This document shows, one piece after another, positions 4,990-62,916 of a stretch of 64,000 nt of DNA. The DNA lies in contig NC_057925.1 in assembly GCF_018873765.1 (NCBI RefSeq), forward strand, positions 43,059,010 through 43,123,009. Direction: 5' to 3'. The notes beneath the pieces are model-generated. The model saw only the letters and a list, made by a program, of their open reading frames with translations, was not told where the DNA came from and did not search any database. Every line of letters begins with the position of its first letter. Within the stretch, counting starts at the first letter, position 1. Made by a program: the position numbers and the translations under genes. The stretch is from Telopea speciosissima (Eukaryota > Streptophyta > Magnoliopsida > Proteales > Proteaceae).

Positions 4990-5318
4990 CACTGCTAAAA
5001 TACTCATAAGGAAGAATGCTTGTAGGAAGAGTGTTTGTTTGGCTTCAAGAAACTGAGTTATTTTGTTCATTTAACCAACTTTGCTTATTTACTATTTTAT
5101 ATTTCATTCATTCATAAATTGGAAGGGTTTCACGTGTTCTTTAGATTAATGATGTCATAATTTCCTTGCCCCGGTTCACAGCATTATTCTCATTCGCCTA
5201 CTAGTATCTTCTCAACTCACTGTTCTGTGATTTTCCATATGTTTCATGAACAGCACTGGAACCTTTATATAATGGTTGGTGCTGTTGTTGTAATTCCTTC
5301 AATTCATATATTAGAGAA
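4990..5318 (+). other. COG6 3' flank / probable 3' UTR
   Basis: AT-rich, non-coding sequence after the COG6 stop. It presumably contains the 3' UTR; I cannot fix the polyadenylation site. Confidence 0.5.
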
Positions 5319-6613: not shown

Positions 6614-6623
6614 GTGACTACCC

Positions 6624-7184
6624 GGATCCACATCCTCTAATTCCAAAGCTCTACTTCCATCCTACTTCCGTGAGCTCCCAGCATGCCACCTAGCCTGAAA
6701 TCCATCCAACGGTTGTTAATTAAAAAATTCAAATTATTTTGAAATCCAGATGAGATCTATTTGAACCACCTTAAACCCCAAACCAACCCCACCCGACCGT
6801 TTCAAAACAAACCAAACCGAACTTATTTCCCTCAAACTAAACACATTTCACTCATCTGCCTAGGGTTTCAAATTGAACAAAAATTCCCAGCAGAACCTCT
6901 CTCGAATCCCTCCCTCTCACAACTCCTCAGTAGCGACGGCGACATGTTCTCTCTCACCCTGCTGTTGCTGCTTTCCGATGTACTCGCCCTAACCTAAATC
7001 TCGATCTCCTCTCTCACTCACCCTGGAAATACTCTCTCGCGCCTCCCTCATTCTCTCTGTGTTCTAAACGACCCTTCTGCTCTTTACAAACCCTAAGCGA
7101 GAAAACTAGTTGTAGCAGATTTCTCATCTTCTTGTTTGATCGGATTCTCTTTCCTTATTTCCCTCCCATTTCACAAACCCTAAG
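6624..7184. repeat. Left terminal inverted repeat of the Pack-MULE
   Basis: About 560 bp matching the reverse complement of 9796-10384 with scattered substitutions and small indels. It contains CCCTAA-rich, TC-rich leader-like sequence (about 6900-7184). The TIR ends where the two arms stop matching, near the second CACAAACCCTAAG. Confidence 0.85.
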
Positions 7185-9053
7185 CAAGAAAACCAATTGT
7201 AGTAGAGAGGGAGGAGAAGGAGAACGTCTGAGTCTATTTTGAGTTTTGAGTTTTCTCGTTTTCCCTTGGCAGAGAAGGAGAAGGAAATTGTGTACGTATG
7301 TCTTCTTGAGTTCATTCACAGAGATCGATTATTGAGTAGGGTGTTTTTGCTTTTGCTAGTTCTTTTCCATTTTCACATTTTCCTAGACCATCAGGTTTGA
7401 CAAGAAAAATGAGATCAATTATTGAGCTATAATGTGCAATGGCTAGACTTGAGTGTCGATTACATCTACACTTCATGCATCAAAACATTTTGGGGTTATG
7501 CAAATACGCCAACAGAATCTACCTCACAAGCTGATCAATTTTTTGTTTAGGTTTCATTTGTTTCCAGCTAAAACCATGTAAGATATATATCTAAAAACAA
7601 GTGGAGAATTGTTTTTAGTTGAGAAACAAATTGCTCCTCAGATTTTGATTTTTTTTTTAAAAATCTGCACCTCAGATGTGTCCTGTATATCATTTTTCGA
7701 ATAACAAAATGACATTAGATTATTAGTATTCTCCTTCGTTATTTGGGTAAAACATTGAATTAGTAGAATTGGATTTGTTTCTTGCTTATGATGGAACCTA
7801 TGATTCAGTTGCACTGTTGGAATTGGATTTGTTTTTCATTTTTTTGTTCTTTGAATCCATCCATTATTTGTGATCCATTAAATTTTTATTATATACCTTT
7901 GTTAACACGGTTTATTTAGGTAGGTGAGTCTTTAGCTCAAACGGAAGAGCACGTGGGGTTACACCGAGGACTCAAGAACAATTTTTCCTTTCATTTTTGT
8001 TGTCTGTAGCTTTTCCCCCCTTTCTCCATTATTTAGAAGTAATCTGTTTGATCAATCTTATTGCATGTAATGGATCCACTATCAAGTGTTTAATGCCCAA
8101 GAATAGTTAACTTGATCCACTGTGTTCAATGGTTTTCTTTGATCTATCTCAAGTACCTTGCAGCCAGCTTGGATACCTTGTATTCTCCATGTATCATTGT
8201 ACAAAATACTCTGTAAAATATGATTCAGCAGACCCTACTCTGTCCTTGAGTTACTACATCAGTAATATTGAATCCTTAGCTGGTTGATCCCTTATTACCC
8301 ACCCTTATCCATGTTGTCTGTTGCATTATTTGCAAAGTTTAGGGCTCCCTGGAACAAGATGTTCAATTTTGGGTTTAAACACTGGTACAACATATTATGT
8401 AATTGTGTGGATCTACTGCATTTAATGGTTTTCTCTAATCTAATGCGTTCAATGGTTTTCTCTGATCTATCTTAAGCATTACTTCTTCGAACATTATCCT
8501 GAAAAGATTCAGCACACAAACCAATCTATTAATCGGGTTCAGCAATGTGAGGATGATCATTACATGTAAGAAGCTTTTTCACTTGAGCAATTTGTAATCT
8601 TTGTAATTTTTTGCAATGAATCGACTAAGCTAGCTGCCATAGGCATGAGGTAAAACAAATACAGACTTAAGAAGAAGAATCTGGATTAATTGCAGAAGCC
8701 TCTCAGCAAGGGGGGAAGGGGGAGAAGGGGGAAGGGGAAGGAGAGACCTGAATTGGATTTCATTTTTTTAGCATAGAAACACCTTCTCCAGCCACTGCTT
8801 TGTTCTCAAATCTCAAGAATGTTTGCTTTTCTTCAGTACTATTTGCTTGAATGAATTGGGTCTTATCTTAGTGGGAGTAATGGGTAATCTTTTCTGTTCA
8901 GTTCCTTCAAATTAAAACAAAATTTAAGTTGGTTTTCTCTCAAAGGCAGGAAAGTATGCTTTTTCTTAGCTTACCCTGAGGGGTTTCGGTTTTCATATTA
9001 GAAAGATGAGAACAAGGACGACTCTCTAGTCCTTCCCATCTACTCATCCTTAG
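7185..9053. other. Pack-MULE interior upstream of captured gene
   Basis: Non-coding sequence, probably the 5' flank of the captured gene plus filler. Two blocks with TGATCTATCT and TTCAATGGTTTTCT recur near 8100-8160 and 8400-8475, so part of it is internally duplicated. A G-rich/A-rich stretch lies at 8708-8745. A tRNA-like box-A relic sits at 7926-7975. Confidence 0.5.
7926..7975 (+). other. tRNA-like relic (box A only)
   Basis: GTCTTTAGCTCAAACGG followed by AAGAGCAC resembles the D-arm region of a tRNA or tRNA-derived SINE, and closely matches the better preserved copy at 62846-62916. No T-arm (GGTTCGAAT) follows, so it is a fragment. Confidence 0.4.
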
Positions 9054-9800
9054 ATGTCTTGGTTTCAGTCTCAAATCAAGGAAAAAGATGATACTTGTAA
9101 CTTTCCACCTGGTATTTCTCCTCTTTCTTCTTATTCCTCATTCAGATCTCCTCATAGTAGTAATGATCAGAATGGATCAACCCCATCGTCATCTGGTAGA
9201 AAAATCAGTCCAATTGTTCTTTTAATCATAGTTATTCTAGCTGTTATATTCTTCATATCTGGTCTGCTCCACCTGCTCGTTATATTCCTCATAAAGAAAC
9301 CATCTTCCTCATCAACTTCTCAGTCTAATAGGTACCTAGATTTGTCCGGCTCTGATGCTCTACAAAGACAGTTACAACAGTTATTCCATCTCCATGACTC
9401 GGGTCTAGATCAAGCTTTCATATATGCTCTCCTTGTTTTCCCCTACAAAGAGAAAATGGGTCTAAAAGAACCCTTCGATTGTGCTGTTTGCCTCTCTGAA
9501 TTTTCAGAACAAGACAAACTTAGATTGCTTCCCATACGTCGCCATGCTTTTCACATCAACTGTATAGACACTTGGCTCCTGCCAAACTCAACATGCCCTC
9601 TTTGCAGAGGAACCCTCTTCACCTCTGGCCTTTCTATTGAAAACCCAATTTTTGAATTTGATGATCCAATGGAGGAGGATGGGATTCCCACCGACAGAGA
9701 GGATAGGTTCCTTCTCTGCGCTTCGCTTAGGATTTCTCAAATGGGAGGGAAAGAGGGTAAGAGAAAAGATAGAAAATGGGAAACACGATTTTCGCCTTAG
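9054..9800 (+). pseudogene. Captured ATL46/47-like RING-H2 gene fragment
   Basis: The 248-codon frame starts MSWFQSQIKEKD, like plant ATL46/ATL47-type ubiquitin ligases. In order: Ser-rich N-terminus, one membrane segment (about residues 51-80), the ATL 'GLD' signature at 117-119, and a RING-H2 domain at about 142-185 (C143, C146, H164, H167, C170, C181, C184). The third zinc ligand, normally Cys in LLPxCxH, is Arg162 here, and the conserved Pro of the GLD motif region (LPxF) is Leu. The family continues for more than 100 residues after the RING; here homology fades near codon 220 and the frame runs into TIR-derived sequence (QMGGKEGKRKD...) and stops at the TIR edge. The ligase is therefore very probably inactive. 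The frame is otherwise open, so a transcript and protein are possible. Confidence 0.85.
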
Positions 9801-10384
9801 GGTTTGTGAAATGGGAGAAAAATAGGGAAAGAGAATCCAATCAAACAAGAAGATGGGAAATCTACTACAACTATTTTTCTTGCTTAGGGTTTGTAAAGAG
9901 CAGAAGGGTCGTCTGGAACACAGAAAATGAGGTAGGCACAAGAGAGTATTTCCAGGGTGATTGAGAGAGGAGATCAAGATTTAGGTTAGGGCGAGTACAT
10001 CGGAAAGCAACAGCAGTGGCAGGGTGAGAGAGAGGATGTCGCCGTTGCTATCGCCGTCGCCACTGAGGAGTTGTAAGAAGGATGAGTGAGAGAGGGAGGG
10101 ATTCGGGAGAGGTTCTGATGGGAATTTTCGTTCGATTTGAAACCTTAGGCAAATGAGTGAAATGGGTTTAGTTTGAGGGAAATAAGTTCGATTTGGTTTG
10201 TTTTGAACCGGTCCGGTGGGGTTGGTTTGGGGTTTAAGGTGATTCAAATAGATCTCATCTGGATTTCAAAATAATTTGAATTTTTTAATTAACAACCATT
10301 GGATGGTTTTCAGGCCAGGTGGCATGCTGAGAGCTCATGGAAGTAGGATGGAAGTAGAGCTTTGGAAGTAGAGGATGTGAATCC
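9796..10384. repeat. Right terminal inverted repeat of the Pack-MULE
   Basis: Reverse-complement partner of 6624-7184. Just inside it (about 9720-9795) a motif CTTAGGATTTCTCAAATGGG repeats the TIR's own CTTAGGGTTTGTGAAATGGG, so the arm seems to have grown inward by a tandem step over the end of the captured gene. Confidence 0.85.
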
Positions 10385-10444
10385 GTGAGTACCCACAAGT
10401 TGAAGCCTCAATTTTCAAGATGTTTTTAAGAGCATGTTTTAAAA

Positions 10445-14363: not shown

Positions 14364-15877
14364 TTATGTAACTGAACCAACTTTTCTTCCCAGAACCAAG
14401 AAAAGAGACTCCATCTGCTTATCCAACTTGAATCCTGCCATCTCTATATCCTTGTAGAGCTCCTTACACTTGGCTAACCTCCCTGAAACTGCATATATCT
14501 TGATCAAATTCCGGTATATATCATATGCTGGACTGAAACCTGCATCCTTGAGTCTTGAGAAATATCTTACAGCCCTTGAGAGGTCATTCAAACTGACACA
14601 GTTTTATGACAACACGATAAGCTGGAAGATCAGAGAGACAATTTGATCCCTCCATTTCCCAAACCAGGGCGAGTGCCTCCCTGTATTTCTTCTCAGTGTA
14701 CCGGCTATGGATCATAGTAGTGTACTTGACCACACTCAGGTCACATCCAGATTCCCTGTACCAGTTAAAGAGACTCTCAACAATATCAAATTTCTTGAGC
14801 CTAATACAGACTTTCATGACTGCTGTACAATCCTGCTGCTCCAGTTGCAGATCATCTCCATCTGCAAGCTCATCTAGTAAAGCCAAAACAAGATTGTATG
14901 TGTCTGGGTTCTTACCAAGCTCTAGTATCAGCTTTGCATGGATGCTTGCATCCAGTGTTATTTTATTATCCTTGGCAACCAAGAGCAGCTTCCTAGCTAG
15001 ATTCAAACTCCCTCCTCGTACAAAGCCCCTTGCCATTGCCTCAATAACAGTCCGACTGGCTGAACTCATAAACTTCTCCAAGTCGAAAGGCATTTTCAGT
15101 CCATGGGCCCTTGCTAAGATCTCAATGGTTGAAGCAAGAATGCAGTCATCCGGGAAGAGTTGAGATTGTTTCTTAGCCCAGCAGAAGGTCTGCAGAGCTC
15201 TCTGTGGAAGACCCACATGACCCAATTCCCGTATTGTTAAGGACAGAAATCCCTTTCGGAGGAACTGAACCCACTTATCGCGAATTTCAGATGTATCTTT
15301 ATCTGATGGAAGCCCCCTAATTTCTCTAGCTAGAGCCAGTAGGAAATCAGGGTTCTTGTGTGCTTGCTTAGACAAGGACAACCTAGATGAGAGTGGAGTA
15401 ATCATTCTCACATGTTTCTTCGATGTAGGAAGTCCCAATGGTCTGAGTTTGCATGGATGTGGGAGTGGGAGAGGCCTCCCTGTACAAACTCCAGGGTTTT
15501 TGAGCTATTCTTCCTTGGAAAAGAGATGAAATTGCTTAAATCTCGCCTGAGCTCCACACAGGATCATCATCAACAGTGGCAGCAGTATCATACTCTTCAG
15601 CGGCATTATCATTATCAGATGATGGGTCTGCTCCAGAAGTTCTCTTCTTTATGGATTTATTGACCATGGGGTCTGGTGGAAGCTTTGGGCGCCGTGGAAA
15701 TCTGAGATTTTTGGGTGGCTTCCTATGGTAATGGCGCTGACCTGATCGAGTCGAGGCTCCAATTTTAAAGAGACTCAAAGAATTCCTCGAAATTTCAGGT
15801 CTGTCTAATGGTTTGAATCGGAAAAATTGCAGTTGGGCTATTGGAGATTCATGGTAGGATGCAAGTAGCGAATCCAT
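14364..15877 (-). pseudogene. EMB975-like PPR pseudogene (unit A copy)
   Basis: This is the unit A counterpart of the open gene at 18816-20333. It starts at the same ATG (15877) and is nearly identical over most of its length. Three disabling differences from unit B are visible: a Glu codon turned into a stop near 15536-15538 (GAA to TAA on the coding strand), a 2-bp loss near 15470, and a 2-bp loss near 14597, so only three separate open pieces remain (15877-15536, 15438-14584, 14591-14364). Several missense changes also differ from B. The promoter-side flank is duplicated, so a non-coding or truncated transcript is possible; 113 N-terminal residues could still be made. Few differences imply a recent duplication and recent decay. 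Confidence 0.9.
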
Positions 15878-16203: not shown

Positions 16204-19200
16204 AGAATGTAAACCGTTAAAACTTAAAAGTAAGGTTTGAGGTCTCTGTTTCGGGCATGGATTCAGTCAAGCCTGAAATCGAATTGTCTGAGTCGAAACC
16301 CGAGATCTCAGCTGAAAGCATTTTTTTTTCCCTTCAAATTTTGGCCCTAGATTTAAGGGGTCATATGACCTAATTAGGTCATGAAACTTGTAGTACAGTC
16401 TATTTTAGGCCATATAAGCATGGTGGAACCTAGTTTTTTAAAAATCACACTCAAAATGGTAGTCTGACTTCAGACCCTAAATTGATAGTCATAATTTGAG
16501 GTTTCGTCGAGATTCCAAAATCATCCCTTATTTATGTCAAATATCATTTAAGTAAATTTTTTTTTTATTTCATTTACTAAAGATATTATTCATAAATAAA
16601 CAAATACTCTTATTTGAATCCAATAAAAATAGTTAAAAAAATCAAATTCCAATAGGATAAAAAGTCAACCACAAGATGAACAACAACAGCAATTGAATTT
16701 TCGTTTGAAGGGGTGATTTTCAACTTTCAAATGCTATGTTTTTTCTCAAATCTATAAATTCCATTGATCTTATTATGATAGAACATCACTAAAAAACAAA
16801 AGAGCTGCAAAATAATCTTTTGTTTTGGTGTCTAAAAATTTATTTCCATTTAGAACGATTTTAAACAGTATTCACACACCCACACACCAAATAAAGTTTG
16901 ACCGGAACATAACTCAAGTAAATACAAATCAAATTTGAACAATGATTATTTCTTCACTCTTTTAGTTTTTAGCAATGTTTTATCATGTTAAGATTTACAG
17001 AATTTTTAGATTAGAAAAAAAAAACCTTAGCAATTGAAAGTTGAAAATTTGGGTAAATAAGGGAATGATTCTAAAATTATTTTGAAGTCAAGGCGATACA
17101 GGACGAAATTTTGACCTTGTCTCATTGAGATTGGATCAAAATTTCGGCCGAAACCTAGTATATTTGCTATTTTAGTAGTGGTTTTGACTCGGTAGCTATT
17201 GAAACCAAGATCTCGGCGAGACCTCGAACCTTGATTAGAAGAAAGAGTTCATAACAGAACTCAAAGGAAGGAAGAGAGAGGAGTTAGGGTCAAGGGGTGA
17301 GTGTCAAGGGTATTCACGGGTTCGTCTTTGTTCCTCTGATTTGTTCCTGAGATAGAAACAAAATTTAATTTTGTTTTGTGTTTCTCAAAAGTTTTGTTCC
17401 AAATGTCCAGTTCATTCTAGAAAACCGAACCGGCATTACCAAACATGTTTCTACTCTATTAAAGTTCTTAAGGAACAAAAGAACAGTAGAAACGCTCCAA
17501 AAAGAACATTACTATTTGATCGAATTAGAACTGCCTAGGGATGGAGTACCGTGTTCCAGAAATAGCATTGTTAGTTACAGCGGATCTTGGATAGTGAGTA
17601 GTTTCTATAATAATAATTCAAGTCAATAATAATAATAAAACTGGATGAGCTTGCCATGATGGCTTGGTAAGCACACAGTTATGTAGGTGCCAACTAGATC
17701 TCTATTTAGAAATTAGGGCTATGAATGGCAAATAAGCCCTGTTGTAAGGAGATTTTTTTGTTGAATCAAGGGCTTAAAAGCTTGCTAGTTTTGGTATTCC
17801 AGCAGCCTGTGATGGGGAAAGAAGAGAAGACAATGAAAGGCTGTTTTGGGACTGTGAACAGTACCCATAAACAGTAACATGAAAAAAGAGGTGTAGGGGA
17901 GAGGAACTCAACTCACACTTTCACAAATAAAATTCTATTAAACTGTGTAAATTGATTGGGGGTTACATCCTTATATAAGTAGTGTTTGAGTGAACTTCTA
18001 CACGTTGTTAGGTGTTGATTGTTTGGAAGTCAAGGTCAAGCCTACTCTGGAACTAATTGCTAAGTATCTCACTCAGACAATCGGACCAACCAATCAGGCT
18101 TCATAAAAAGAATTACAGGAAAGAATAGTTTGAAACAGGTGGAGACTTTATTCCAGCAGCAAAAAATCCCTGGTTCAAACAATCATGTCACCATAATCCA
18201 CCATATTCAAGAATTTAATTGGATAGTCAATACGGCATTATAGAAACCGAGCTTATATGTAAGTCAAGAAAACATAAAACATATCAGGAGATTAGACAAA
18301 TAGTATGACATGATTGAGGTGATTGATGAAATGAATCTCCTTAATTCATACGATAGAGGACCTAGTATCAATTCTAACAGAATGTATAACACCACAACCC
18401 AATAAATATAAATTTATCAAGTGACAAAAACCAATAAATGAACTCCAATGGAAATCAATGGAACAGAAACTGATAGGGAGAACCTTTCAATGTGCAAATC
18501 ATTTTTACTCATGGCCTTATCCACTAAATCAGCAAGGCCTCTGTCAATTGAAGGATCCTATGGTTCTTACACTCACACAAACATGTACATGTCTTTATTT
18601 AATTAAGCAGTCATTTGTTTCAGGACTCGGAATGTATGAGTATTAGCTCCATCCCTATTACTGTGCCTTTTGTTATTTGTTCTGCCTTAATTTTGATAAT
18701 TCTAAGCGGCATCAGTTGGTATAGAAATCCATACTCAATAAGAAATACTCTATTTATAGAAATAAACCAATATGAAAAGAGAAGTTTGATCACCTGAACA
18801 GACAAACTGGAATTCTTATGTAACTGAACCAACTTTTCTTTCCAAACCCAAGAAAAGAGACTCCATCTGCTTATCCAACTTGAATCCTGCCAACCCTATA
18901 TCCTGGCAGAGCTCCTTACACTTGGCTAACCTCCCTGAAACGGCATATATTTTGATCAAATTCCGGTATATATCATATGTTGGACTGAAACCTGCATCCT
19001 TGAGTCTTGAGAAATATCTTACAGCCCTTGAGAGGTCATTCAAACAGACACACAGTTTTATGACAACATGATAAGCTGGAAGATCAAAGAGACAATTTGA
19101 TCCCTCCATTTCCCAAACCAGGGCGAGTGCCTCCCTGTATTTCTTCTCAGAGTACCGGCTATGGATCATAGTAGTGTACATGACCACACTCAGGTCACGT

Positions 19201-20658
19201 CCAGATTCCCTGTACCAGTTAAAGAGACTCTCAACAATATCAAATTTCTTGAGCCTAATACAGACTTTCATGACTGCTGTACAATCCTGCTGCTCCAGTT
19301 GCAGATCATCTCTATCTGCAAGCTCATCTAGTAGAGCCAAAACAAGATTGTATTTGTCTGGGTTCTTACCAAGCTCTAGTATCAGCTTTGCATGGATGCT
19401 TGCATCCAGTGTTCTTTTATTATCCTTGGCAACTAAGAGCAGCTTCCTAGCTAGATTCAAACTCCCTCCTCGTATAAAGCCCCTTGCCATTGCCTCAATA
19501 ACAGTCCGACTGGCTGAACTCATAAACTTCTCCAAGTCGAAAGGCATTTTCAGTCCATGGGCCCTTGCTAAGATCTCAATGGTTGAAGCAAGAATGCGGT
19601 CATCCGGGAAGAGTTGAGATTGTTTCTGAGCCCAGCAGAAGGTCTGCAGAGCTCTCTGTGGAAGACCCATATGACCCAATTCCCGTATTGTTAAGGACAG
19701 GGATCCCTTTCGGAGGAACTGAACCCACTTATCGAGGATTTCAGATGCATCTTTATCTGATGGAAGCCCCCTAATTTCTCTAGCTAGAGCCAGTAGGAAA
19801 TCAGGGTTCTTGTATGCTTGCTTAGACAAGGACAATCTAGATGAGAGTGGAGTAATCATTCTCACATGTTTCTTAGATGTAGGAAGTCCCAATGGTCTGA
19901 GTTTGTATGGAAGTGAGAGTGGGAGCGGCCTCTCCCTGTTCAAACTCCCGGGTTTTTGAGCTATTCTTCCTTGGAAAAGAGATGAAATTGCTTCAATCTC
20001 GTCTGAGCTCCACACAGGATCATCATCAACAGTGGCAGCAGTATCATACTCTTCAGCGGCATTATCATTATCAGATGATGGGTCTGCTCCAGAAGTTCTC
20101 TTCTTTATGGATTTATTGACCATGGGGTCTGGTGGAAGCTTTGGGCGCCGTGGAAATCTGAGATTTTTGGGTGGCTTCCTATGGTAATGGCGCTGACCAG
20201 ATCGAGTCGTGGTTCCAATTTTAAAGATACTCAAAGAATTTCTCGAAATTTCAGGTCTGTCTAATGGTTTGAATCGGAAAAATTGTAGTTGGGCTATTGG
20301 AGATTCATGGTAGGATGCAAGTAGCGAATCCATGTCTTTTTGAATCAACTTATATCGGATTTCCTACAGTGGTGTTGCCGAGCTTGTGCAAGAAAACCCC
20401 GAAAATGATAATAGTCACTGCCAACAAAAGGAAATTCAAGGTCGTATAGGCATTTCATCAAACAAGTATAATGCAGAGGTCTTCCCTGTGATTGATTTTC
20501 ATTTAGAGTTCAGTATTTGTTTCCTGAACCCACTCCATGCCCATAACAGCGTTCTAGGGCAGTTAAATCGAGCATTTGGGTCTGAATTCGAATTGGAAGG
20601 CTCTAGTGACTGACTTAACACGAGGATGGATTGCAGTCCTGTAGACGATAGAGGCCTA
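16204..20658. repeat. Tandem segmental duplication, unit B
   Basis: Second unit of the direct duplication (4455 bp). It lacks the ~620 bp present in A at 12957-13576 (the join in B is at about 17997) but keeps about 35 bp (near 18029-18063) that A has lost between AAGT repeats. It carries the open PPR gene. Confidence 0.92.
18816..20333 (-). CDS. EMB975: EMB975-like pentatricopeptide repeat protein
   Basis: An intronless frame of 505 codons. I chose the ATG at 20333 (MDSLLASYHES) because unit A shares it, and because the extension upstream begins only with TTG. The protein matches my recollection of Arabidopsis At2g01860 (EMB975), a P-class PPR protein: a basic N-terminus with RHYHRKPPKNLRFPRRPKLP (about residues 47-66), a central part with LPxKDASxILDKWVQFLRKG and TIRELGHMGLPQRALQTFCWA, and a C-terminal run of PPR helices (VVMYTTMIHSRYSEKKYREAL, AYHVVIKLCVCLNDLSRAVRYF, FSPTYDIYRNLIKIYAVSGRL). 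PPR proteins bind organelle RNA; a plastid or mitochondrial role is an inference. The embryo-defective name implies that the gene is essential, which fits retention of one intact copy. No breaks are seen. Confidence 0.85.
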   Translation of the reverse strand: MDSLLASYHESPIAQLQFFRFKPLDRPEISRNSLSIFKIGTTTRSGQRHYHRKPPKNLRFPRRPKLPPDPMVNKSIKKRTSGADPSSDNDNAAEEYDTAATVDDDPVWSSDEIEAISSLFQGRIAQKPGSLNRERPLPLSLPYKLRPLGLPTSKKHVRMITPLSSRLSLSKQAYKNPDFLLALAREIRGLPSDKDASEILDKWVQFLRKGSLSLTIRELGHMGLPQRALQTFCWAQKQSQLFPDDRILASTIEILARAHGLKMPFDLEKFMSSASRTVIEAMARGFIRGGSLNLARKLLLVAKDNKRTLDASIHAKLILELGKNPDKYNLVLALLDELADRDDLQLEQQDCTAVMKVCIRLKKFDIVESLFNWYRESGRDLSVVMYTTMIHSRYSEKKYREALALVWEMEGSNCLFDLPAYHVVIKLCVCLNDLSRAVRYFSRLKDAGFSPTYDIYRNLIKIYAVSGRLAKCKELCQDIGLAGFKLDKQMESLFLGLERKVGSVT

Positions 20659-46369: not shown

Positions 46370-47905
46370 TGGATTTTCTATAAGGAAAAAAGATCTCTAC
46401 TTGATGGTAGGAACATGTAAAATATTAGAGAGACGAAAAGAAAGGTCAGGCTGGGGGGAGGGAAGGGAAGCATCACCAATATGAACAATGGGTAAACCCT
46501 TACCGTTGCCGACATGAAGTTGATCATTTTCAGAGTAATCACTGTATGTAGAGAGAGAGCCAATGTCAAGGGTAACATGGTGTGTGGCACCAGCATCTGG
46601 ATACCAGGTTAAAGCCGTGGATGGGGCCGGGGTGTGGGAAGAAGGGGTGGCTGGGTAGCATAGGTTGCGGGTGGGGTAGGGACGAGTGATGGCGATGGGT
46701 GAAGGGAAAGGGGAAGAGGACGATGGACGGTGATGGTGAAATAGGTGGGGTTGATCTTAGTGGCAGTTTTGAGCGGAATGATATAGACGATGACAAATGT
46801 TGCACCATTGTGTGTTGGTTTGAGAATGGCCACCACGGCCACAACCACGACCGCCACGACCGTAGGGATATCCTTTATGAGAATTAGAGGGGTTGTGATC
46901 AGAGGCAGGTCCATGGTTAACAGAGTGTGTAGACAGAGCTGTTGTTGTAGTAGGTACTTCAGAGACAGCAAGTTTGGTGAATGAAGTGAGGACTTCATGA
47001 CTTTGGAGGAGTGCCAGCCGATCATTGAAGGATGGGGCTGGCTTTTGGGTAAGCAGAGATGGGACTATGGCCTTCAAATCAGGGAGAAGACCATGGTATA
47101 TATGGATATTAAAATCCTCTGGTGTGATGGTTTTGCCAATAGCTTGAAGTTCATCAGCGATGGAGCGTGCTCGTTGGAGAAAGAGAACCATGGATTCATC
47201 GGGGTTTTGAGTAAGATCATAGAGAGCTAAATTAAGAGACATAATATGAGTGCTTGAGGTGGAGCCATAGGCAATGTGAAGCGCATCCCAGAGAGCCTTG
47301 CTGGTGTCTTTGCCAATAATCAGGGGCAACACTTTAGTGGATAATGAAGATATGAGTAAACTAAGGATGAGAGCATCTTGTTGTTTCCAAGCCAGTGCAT
47401 AATCAAGATTTGCAGGTTCGGGAACCAGGATCTGCAGGTTGGGGAACTGTTCCATCGAGATAGCCAAATAAATTTTGGCCGGTAAGGAATGGAATGGGTT
47501 GTGCTTTCCAAAGGAGAAAGTTTGTGGAGGTTAACTTGAGGTTGAGATAGTGATGAGCTGCGGGGAGAGGTGCAACAGTTGTAGATGGAGTCATGACTGT
47601 GGTTAAAAGGAGCATGATGATAGAAAATCTCACGTTGGTAAGTGAAGAAGGAAGAGGATCGAGAGAAGAAGGGCGGAGGCCAGGGACTCAGGATACCATA
47701 TTAGACTTGAATAACTTGATTGCATTAGATAGGAAATTAGGTTACAATATATAGGACCCAGTTTGGATCGCTCAACAGTAGGCGTTATCACATGGGACTC
47801 AAAGTCCTCACATATGATAACAACCAATGTACATAAAATAAGGAGTTTGAATACTAAAAGGAAGAAGATCCAGAATGGGATTCTAATTCTGTTGATACCT
47901 ACGCT
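46370..47905 (-). mobile_element. Ty1/Copia LTR element fossil: LTR, primer site, gag, start of pol
   Basis: A minus-strand fossil. From its 5' side: an LTR remnant (about 47905-47698), a TGGTATC primer-binding-type motif (about 47697), a gag region of the UBN2/Copia type (about 47635-46757) with a CCHC zinc knuckle at its end, and a short stretch with the aspartic-protease-side features of Copia pol down to about 46370. Integrase, reverse transcriptase and the second LTR are absent. It is broken, with a few breaks within the part left. Moderate age. Confidence 0.82.
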
Positions 47906-61539: not shown

Positions 61540-62845
61540 AGGTGAAAAAGAAGGGCAATCTAGGTATTTAAAAACATAAGGGGAGAAAGAGATGTAAAAG
61601 TTTAAAATCAGGGGAGTATCGGAAAATAAGTTTAAGATAGAGAAGTTTTAGTAAATATAGATTAAGTGTAGGGGAGTGCTAGTAATTACCCTTTTTTTTT
61701 TAGGGGGGGGGGGGGTGTTTGGGGGGTTGTTGTGAGACTGTGAGGGGAGGGGTTAGTTTGAAGGAGCCTATTGGAAGTGCCAACCCAAGAGGCCCTTTTT
61801 GTGCTTGGTCCTCTCGTGTCCTATTCAGAATATTGGTAATTCCTACTCATGAGTTACCAGGCTGTCTGGTCTAGTGCGCACTAAGTGCTTATAAACTTTC
61901 ACATTTGATGTGGAACTGATATTTTTGTGCGGAAGTCCAACAATCTCCCACTCTATATGAGAATAGAGATTTTTCTCAAAAGATTTTTTTTATCCCTGGC
62001 GATACTTCTTAATTACCACACCTCATCTTTGATACCACATGTTTGATATTTGGGTAGAACTAACTGTCAAAAGATAACCATTAAGAAGCGGGTACTCAAG
62101 TTTTTTTTTTTTTTTTTGTGTTAGAAGATATTCAAGTTCTTATAAACCTTTGGCCAAAGATTTCATACACGGCCGTACAAGCATGCACGGTCGTGTCCCC
62201 TCTCACAAAGAGTAAGAAAAATCATAAATCCCCCACCCATAGTTAATGCCTCAAAACTCCCACTCTCTCACATGCACGACTTACACAGCATTTTCTAGAG
62301 TTGCAAATGGGTGGGAAGGAGATGTAATTTCATGGTGGCCGGGTTTCTTTCTAGTCATGAATGATACAACAACAAAGATCCATTGGCCTTACAGAAGACA
62401 ATAGCTGTTTCTTACAGTAATGTGTATTATAGCTTTCTTTTTATGGTGGAAGCATATTCTTTATCATATCAAAGAAGCATTCATTCTGTCATGGTTTTTT
62501 TGTTTGGGAGATTATCAGCGACACCCCCTCCGATAGCCGGTTCAATTAATGTTAAATTTATTAATTTTCATTATCTCTATCTAATGTATGTTATGTTGTT
62601 GGAGCTAATTTATAGACCTTTCGTTTGTTGGATTGGTTTTAATAGAGTAATGCTAATGCAGATTTAAATGTTATTTGATTGAATTGATTAGGTTGTGATT
62701 CAGGGACAACAGTGTGTATATATGAAAGCTTGATGAATCTTGTATTATTGATTCTCCTTGCATCTATGTTATATGAAATGTTATATAGGTTTCTGTTGTT
62801 CTTTACTTTCTTAATCTGGTTGCAAATTCAATTTTAACTTCATAT
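61540..62845. other. Non-coding stretch
   Basis: G-run at 61704-61715 and T-runs at 61690 and 62102-62117; no gene recognised. Confidence 0.45.
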
Positions 62846-62916
62846 GTCTTTAGCTCAAACTAGTAGAGCACTTGAGGACTTCCCAAGAGATGATGGTTCG
62901 AATCCATCAAGATTCA
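62846..62916 (+). other. tRNA-like sequence (pseudo-tRNA or SINE head)
   Basis: GTCTTTAGCTC and GAGC form a good D stem, and GATGGTTCGAATCCATC a perfect T stem with box B. The anticodon arm does not give a standard 7-base loop and the acceptor stem pairs only over its inner part, so a working tRNA is unlikely. The related fragment at 7926-7975 suggests a repeat family. Confidence 0.5.

Follow-up and report, generated by a model that had tools for sequence, protein, structure and literature searches.

How did an element with inverted arms in the genome of Telopea speciosissima come to hold an open reading frame for a RING-H2 protein, and is this frame a working gene? The element is located at positions 6624-10384 of a 64,000-nucleotide stretch of chromosome 10 (C10:43059010-43123009), which is called the window below. 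The genome searched comprises 823 Mb in 1287 contigs. The capture and trading of host-gene pieces by plant transposons are still debated. Our best explanation, which we hold with considerable confidence, is that the element is a non-autonomous Pack-MULE, i.e. a Mutator-like element (MULE) with a host-gene fragment, that its family has two lineages, in one of which the ends have been swapped, and that the RING frame is a passenger.

Structure and mobility of the element

The initial annotation proposed a Pack-MULE with inverted arms of ~0.57 kb and a 10-bp target duplication with one mismatch, and both features were found. The left arm (6624-7184, plus strand, 561 bp) and the right arm (9796-10384, minus strand, 589 bp) were defined by inverted-repeat alignment, and 6624-7184 pairs end to end with the reverse complement of 9796-10384. 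The inverted pairs 6623-6921/10087-10385 (94%), 6962-7060/9918-10016 (91%) and 7056-7184/9796-9924 (92%), together with two further bridging pairs (82% and 85%), cover the arms along their full length. The arms are 88% identical to each other with gaps counted, and 7.7% different by substitutions alone. The termini are GGATCCACATCC and GGATTCACATCC, and the end form is GGAT(C/T)CACATCC; this end is called type A. The first ~290-320 bases of the left arm are common to many other elements in the genome, and the remainder is the inner part of the arm. Two AAACCCTAA boxes are present in the left arm, and two are present, reversed, in the right arm; the initial annotation suggested that leader-like sequence in the arms could drive transcription. 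The flanking 10-mers GTGACTACCC (6614-6623) and GTGAGTACCC (10385-10394) are identical at nine of the ten bases, and as a chance control, a match of at least nine of ten was observed in 17 of 200,000 random 10-mer pairs from the window. The target duplications of Pack-MULEs are typically ~9-11 bp. The internal direct repeats within the window arms are 37-40 bp, so that the similarity over at least 100 bp between external and internal terminal inverted repeats (TIRs), which characterizes tandem-TIR MULEs, is not seen in these arms. Apart from the RING frame, the longest frames listed inside the element are of 78 amino acids (plus strand) and 129 amino acids (minus strand).

According to an arm search of the genome, in which the best 40 of 593 candidates were scored and the copy counts are lower bounds, at least six full copies are present. 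They are the window copy and the copies at C7:22539352-22543120, C9:46065575-46069381, C1:64077139-64080925 (C1b), C1:29482680-29486532 (C1a) and C8:3641030-3644780. The others are 88-94% identical to the window copy in the arms and 94-96% identical in the interiors, and the whole-element difference among the six copies is 1.7-4.0%. The target duplications vary by site: CATTAAGAA at C9, AACCATGACC at C1a, CTATTTTAA at C8, TAAAGTAC at C1b and GTTGAAGA at C7. Those at C9, C1a, C1b and C8 are exact and of 8-10 bp, and that at C7 is of 8 bp and adjoins an altered right end. The bases near the left end of the C8 copy are also altered. Incomplete copies were found as well. Element pieces at C4:30125843-30126449 and C4:30134497-30134832 lie ~8 kb apart and are probably one truncated copy split by this distance, and C1:80996158 is a lone arm, nearer to the right arm in sequence.

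The joined flanks of the C1b copy were compared with the genome. Among the best 40 of 989 rows, two are its own flanks, and 38 span the joint and extend 4-24 bases beyond the duplication. These joint-spanning rows indicate that the target of C1b belonged to a dispersed repeat, of which other members are unoccupied. As seen by eye in the flanks, the C1b copy (L023) and the relative L041 on chromosome 3, described below, may sit in the same sort of dispersed repeat. The C7 copy (L021) is located near a frame with a glutathione S-transferase match in Pfam.

By substitutions alone, the two arms of the same copy differ by 5.8-8.4%, and the corresponding arms of different copies differ by 2.0-8.2% (left) and 2.9-6.8% (right). 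On these values, the two arms had probably diverged from each other before the family was copied to its present sites, and the left-right arm divergence was not used as a measure of age.

Other elements with the same ends, for which the initial annotation suggested a search, are present. The element L042 on chromosome 1 (~8.05 kb including two end pieces) belongs to the type A elements by its ends, which over arm bases 1-320 show identities of 79% and 78%, and its flanks AGGATGGGTC and AGGATGGATC form a 10-bp duplication with one mismatch. L042 contains two separate frames, with matches to FAR1 and MULE, and to SWIM, and on these matches it is a possible transposase source for the window family. 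Five more type A elements were checked. L035, L036 and L037 have exact 9-bp duplications, and no duplication was found at the element ends used in L034 and L038 (two of the five). Thus, the assignment to the Pack-MULEs stands on the long inverted arms, the duplications of 8-10 bp that vary among the copies, the six copies, the 8-kb relative with transposase matches and ends of the same type, and the likely parent of the cargo on another chromosome.

Probable exchange of the ends and of the cargo

The same cargo was found between different ends at C2:1440554-1444679 (L026:2055-6180). The interior of this C2 relative differs by 6-9% from those of the six copies, and in the outer arms 59-60% of the aligned sites differ. 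The ends start with GGATTTTAATCC and are called type B; 11 of the first 15 bases match between type A and type B, as counted by eye. A type B end search, with the best 40 of 216 candidates scored, points to many other type B members. The frames near the C2 element resemble chalcone synthase by eye.

Both the C2 relative and L041 have chimeric arms, in which the outer type B part passes into a type A inner part. In L041 the joint is formed by ATTCCATCTCC followed directly by CTCTCTCACTCATCC. Past the joint, the B-only elements L043 and L044 read GGCGTGTGAAGCG, and the type A elements enter via ATCCCTCC. According to inspection by eye, CTCC is common to both end types at the joint, corresponding to a microhomology of ~4 bp. 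The joint pattern, with up to three mismatches, has four matches in the genome, namely both C2 arms and both L041 arms, and the reversed control has none. Most simply, a single origin of the joint may be supposed, followed by its copying to both ends. The type B elements L043 and L044 and the type A elements L033, L034 and L045 are continuous through the joint site. In the window, the approximate counterpart of the joint is at 6912 (plus strand, arm base ~289 by arm comparison), and type A sequence is continuous there. The inner arms form two groups, C2 with L041, and the six copies with the type A relic L033 (sites 368, 427 and 428, and an indel near 430).

L041 (C3:25590561-25594218) has a 9-bp duplication and a different cargo, a serine-carboxypeptidase fragment with Peptidase_S10 matches. 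The carboxypeptidase stretch is 97% identical to C2:57336552-57337406. A scrap of the RING-element interior is kept in L041, adjoining the right arm. With up to one mismatch, the 22-mer TTCAATGGTTTTCTYTGATCTA occurs 19 times in the 823 Mb; 18 of the occurrences lie in the C2 relative or the six copies, the remaining one lies in L041, and a control gave none. The corresponding interior stretch of the window element is 8412-8456 (plus strand). Judging from this scrap, the ancestor of L041 was most likely an element that had chimeric arms and carried the RING cargo, and the grouping of the inner arms agrees with this. Since L041 retains the scrap and yet carries the serine-carboxypeptidase fragment, the ends and the cargo would have been exchanged separately.

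The captured RING-H2 frame

The captured ATL-type RING-H2 fragment at 8765-9713 (plus strand), delimited by homology to a gene on chromosome 3, consists of 289 bp of 5' non-coding sequence and codons 1-220. The initial annotation reported a coding frame of 248 codons, and this frame is open at 9054-9800 (plus strand), as seen in the frame list. It is composed of the 220 captured codons and a 28-codon tail derived from the sequence adjoining the right arm. The frame matches zf-RING_2 in Pfam, and the RING-H2 finger corresponds to residues 142-185. A search for the full-length parent, also proposed there, identified a gene at C3:8570244-8570915 as the best relative outside the element family, with 88% protein identity over codons 1-222 and 91% DNA identity; a paralogue is located at C8:10607750. 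Judging from this similarity, the C3 gene is the likely parent of the cargo, and it lies on a different chromosome from the window. The C3 frame has 397 codons, ~380 of them from the same Met. The homology between the element and C3 spans 8765-9713 with one interruption, and the coding homology stops at codon 220-222. The captured part is ~58% of the gene, with the C-terminal ~40% absent; the description of the cargo as a nearly full host gene has to be abandoned. The C3 parent (L027, near 4487) is without ~77 bp of 5' sequence present at window 8908-8984, and this sequence aligns in the C8 paralogue. Thus, the element seems to retain an older form of the leader.

The subgroup ATL46/47 is a label that we presume for the cargo, and the assignment to the ATL type agrees with the zf-RING_2 match and with the features of this family. 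According to PMC3161093, ATL RING-H2 ubiquitin ligases have an N-terminal hydrophobic segment, a GLD motif, and the patterns R-x-LP and ID-x-WL around the zinc ligands. The cargo resembles them as far as described there: a hydrophobic run is seen by eye at residues ~52-80, GLDQ is present at residue 117 between the hydrophobic segment and the RING, and R-x-LP and ID-x-WL are found. The cargo is unlike these ligases in its third zinc ligand and in the absent C-terminal part. Codon 162 (9537-9539, plus strand), one residue past the R-x-LP pattern, is CGT (Arg) in place of TGT (Cys). According to the copy alignment, CGT is present in all six full copies, and TGT is present in the C2 relative, the C3 parent and the C8 paralogue. 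As Cys162Arg is common to the six copies, it predates their spread. The set of eight zinc ligands of an ATL RING-H2 ligase is therefore incomplete in every full copy, with Arg162 at ligand 3, and in C1b one more zinc ligand is lost. The GLD region is altered in the element from IDALPVF to IYALLVF. The 248-codon frame is unbroken in four of the six copies.

Codon changes were polarized with the C8 paralogue as the outgroup, and gapped codons were excluded. On the captured branch, 16 codons are changed (13 nonsynonymous and three synonymous), and on the parent branch 12 codons are changed (three nonsynonymous and nine synonymous); 13 further changed codons are unpolarizable. The two branches differ (Fisher P 0.006): the neutral ratio is compatible with the changes on the captured branch (P 1.0) but not with those on the parent branch (P 0.0002). 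These results suggest, with modest confidence, that the captured frame is neutral or nearly so; most probably, the RING frame is carried along as a passenger and has no ligase activity. The initial annotation hinted at a working gene, but a zinc ligand is lost in six of six copies and the substitutions since capture look neutral. A working RING gene was rejected as the leading explanation on account of Cys162Arg in all copies and the 13:3 pattern, with the indel depletion and the substitution-rate ratios discussed below as weak counter-signals. An open frame inside such an element is not the same as a gene.

Alternative explanations

Several observations weigh against our explanation, and they are considered here together with the alternatives. 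The open frame may be a functional chimeric gene, for example for a RING protein that is anchored in the membrane, has no ligase activity and interferes with the ATL protein of the parent gene. The frame is intact in four of the six copies, as compared with 0.28 per copy in a rough neutral simulation. The ratio of nonsynonymous to synonymous rates (dN/dS) is below 1 in 12 of the 15 pairs among the six copies (range 0.51-1.19), and is 0.61-0.85 for each copy against C2; these values were obtained by a simple method that is biased low. Two distinct indels are found in the 744-bp frame and 18 in the 1580 bp of other interior, and outside simple runs the frame has one indel where 4.8 would be expected (P 0.049). 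The element retains the GLD motif and, as judged by eye, the hydrophobic segment, and Cys162Arg itself is common to the six copies. Weak constraint on the frame is thus possible on these sequence comparisons. However, the captured 5' non-coding stretch has zero indels, so the scarcity of indels in the frame need not reflect coding constraint. The polarized changes since capture are in the neutral ratio, the GLD region and the RING are altered, and C1b has lost a second zinc ligand. We regard a functional gene as very unlikely.

In the case of the ends, no paralogous unoccupied site of the window copy was found among the joined-flank matches in the genome, the flanking duplication of the C2 element matches at eight of nine bases, and the type B elements L043 and L044 show no clear flanking duplication. 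The direction from type A to type B rests on parsimony and is not proved; it is supported by the unbroken type A arms in the window family. In the reverse direction, the ancestor would have had chimeric B ends, and in the window lineage the cargo would have come to lie between type A ends, for instance through interior conversion of a type A element via the shared inner arm. The inner arms of C2 and L041 stand apart from those of the six copies and L033, and recombination inside the arm could produce this pattern. On the other hand, the window family is type A across the joint site, as are L033, L034 and L045, and the joint pattern is matched in C2 and L041 only. Moreover, the inner arm module is present at least in part in seven of the eight non-RING type A loci examined (the exception is L036), as against neither of the two pure type B loci examined. 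The reverse direction is therefore considered unlikely. It may also be supposed that the chimeric arms result from an assembly error, or that nested insertions give the impression of replaced ends, as C2 and L041 are single loci within one assembly. However, the two loci are on different chromosomes, the same joint is present in both arms of each, and each has its own flanking duplication. Their arms differ at 4-9% of the sites over arm bases 326-486, which speaks against one artefact that was duplicated. After a nested insertion, outer arms of type A would be expected to remain, and none was found in L026 or L041. An artefact of this kind is hardly credible.

Proposed history

Under our explanation of a Pack-MULE with two lineages, a type A element with ends GGATCCACATCC would have taken up the 5' portion of an ATL-type RING-H2 gene, whose present counterpart is on chromosome 3, together with other sequence. 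In the first lineage, the type A ends would have been kept and Cys162 lost, and a MULE transposase acting in trans presumably copied the element to six sites or more. In the second lineage, the outer arm would have been replaced by type B (GGATTTTAATCC) at the joint, where ~4 bp are common to both end types; this exchange may have come about by template switching or by gap repair. Conversion of the second arm would have brought the chimeric arm to both ends, and this lineage would have transposed as well. Later, one member of the second lineage would have swapped nearly all of the RING interior for the serine-carboxypeptidase fragment. We infer this order of events from the structures described above.

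It is somewhat more probable than otherwise, in our judgement, that MULE arms are modular, such that a microhomology-guided switch can give a cargo-bearing element both ends of another TIR family, and that the product is mobile and can change its cargo. If this is true, captured host genes could move between transposon families that are mobilized by different transposases. One genome offers a likely parent gene, a joint resolved to the base, one lineage with the swap and one without it, and a member in which the cargo was replaced. With these five components, models of end exchange (slippage, recombination and gap repair) become testable.

Comparison with known systems

Pack-MULEs are said to have been described in rice and other plants by Jiang and colleagues in 2004. 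The window family resembles Pack-MULEs in that its inverted ends are long, its insertions are flanked by target duplications, its host-gene fragment has a parent at an unlinked locus, several copies exist and it is probably non-autonomous. It is unlike the known ones in that one cargo is found between two end families, and in that one relative has a replaced cargo. Pack-MULEs, tandem TIRs and common ends with differing interiors are already known. The members of the maize Mu family have common ends and unrelated interiors; the same sharing of ends is observed here, together with the converse, a common interior with different ends. A limited search of the open-licence literature turned up no earlier description of a single cargo enclosed by two families of MULE ends.

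PM-ZIBP of tomato is a Pack-MULE with multiple tandem TIRs, in which the extra TIR is similar over at least 100 bp, and the role of recombination between related TIRs was left open for it (PMC3310237). PM-ZIBP is also a Pack-MULE family with altered arms, its duplications show mobility, and one arm form was amplified while the other stayed single. There a TIR was added, whereas here another end family takes the place of the outer part, and the joint is resolved to the base. In the accessible part of PMC8277862, the FoSTeST and gap-filling models for Pack-TIRs explain capture by template switching at microhomology. Such template switching is a candidate for the end exchange here; the models concern the capture of host sequence there, and the exchange is between end families here.

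Non-coding interior and other features of the window

The non-coding interior at 7185-8764 (plus strand) is of mixed, mostly obscure origin. According to the genome search, four short stretches are 80-89% similar to loci on chromosomes 7 (twice), 10 and 11 (C11:48833709, C7:8233032, C10:44884085 and C7:3238136). No gene was seen in the frames listed at these four loci; no family search was made there. A remnant of a 75-nt tRNA-like sequence is located by eye at 7926-7974 (plus strand). ARAGORN reports this sequence, with an odd two-base anticodon, in the C2 relative and in every full copy but that of the window; relative to these, the window copy is 24-31 bp short, and the figure varies with the copy used for comparison. 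In Rfam at gathering thresholds, covering the window and L026, the tRNA-like stretch of L026 scores 44 bits, and nothing else was found in the element or the C2 relative. At L039 (C9:11023000-11030500), the inverted stretches 2085-2264 and 5054-5311 resemble the tRNA-like region and its 3' flank, as if they were part of the arms of another element.

The element lies ~1.6 kb downstream of a frame that matches COG6_C. At 14584-15504 and 18816-20363 (minus strand), a few kb apart, two frames with PPR repeats (Pfam) are closely similar by eye, and the first is the shorter. At 62844-62916 (plus strand), Rfam gives a tRNA match of 39 bits, which ARAGORN did not report. The frames at 81-932 and 46757-47530 match reverse transcriptase and copia-type gag, and are ordinary retroelement remains.

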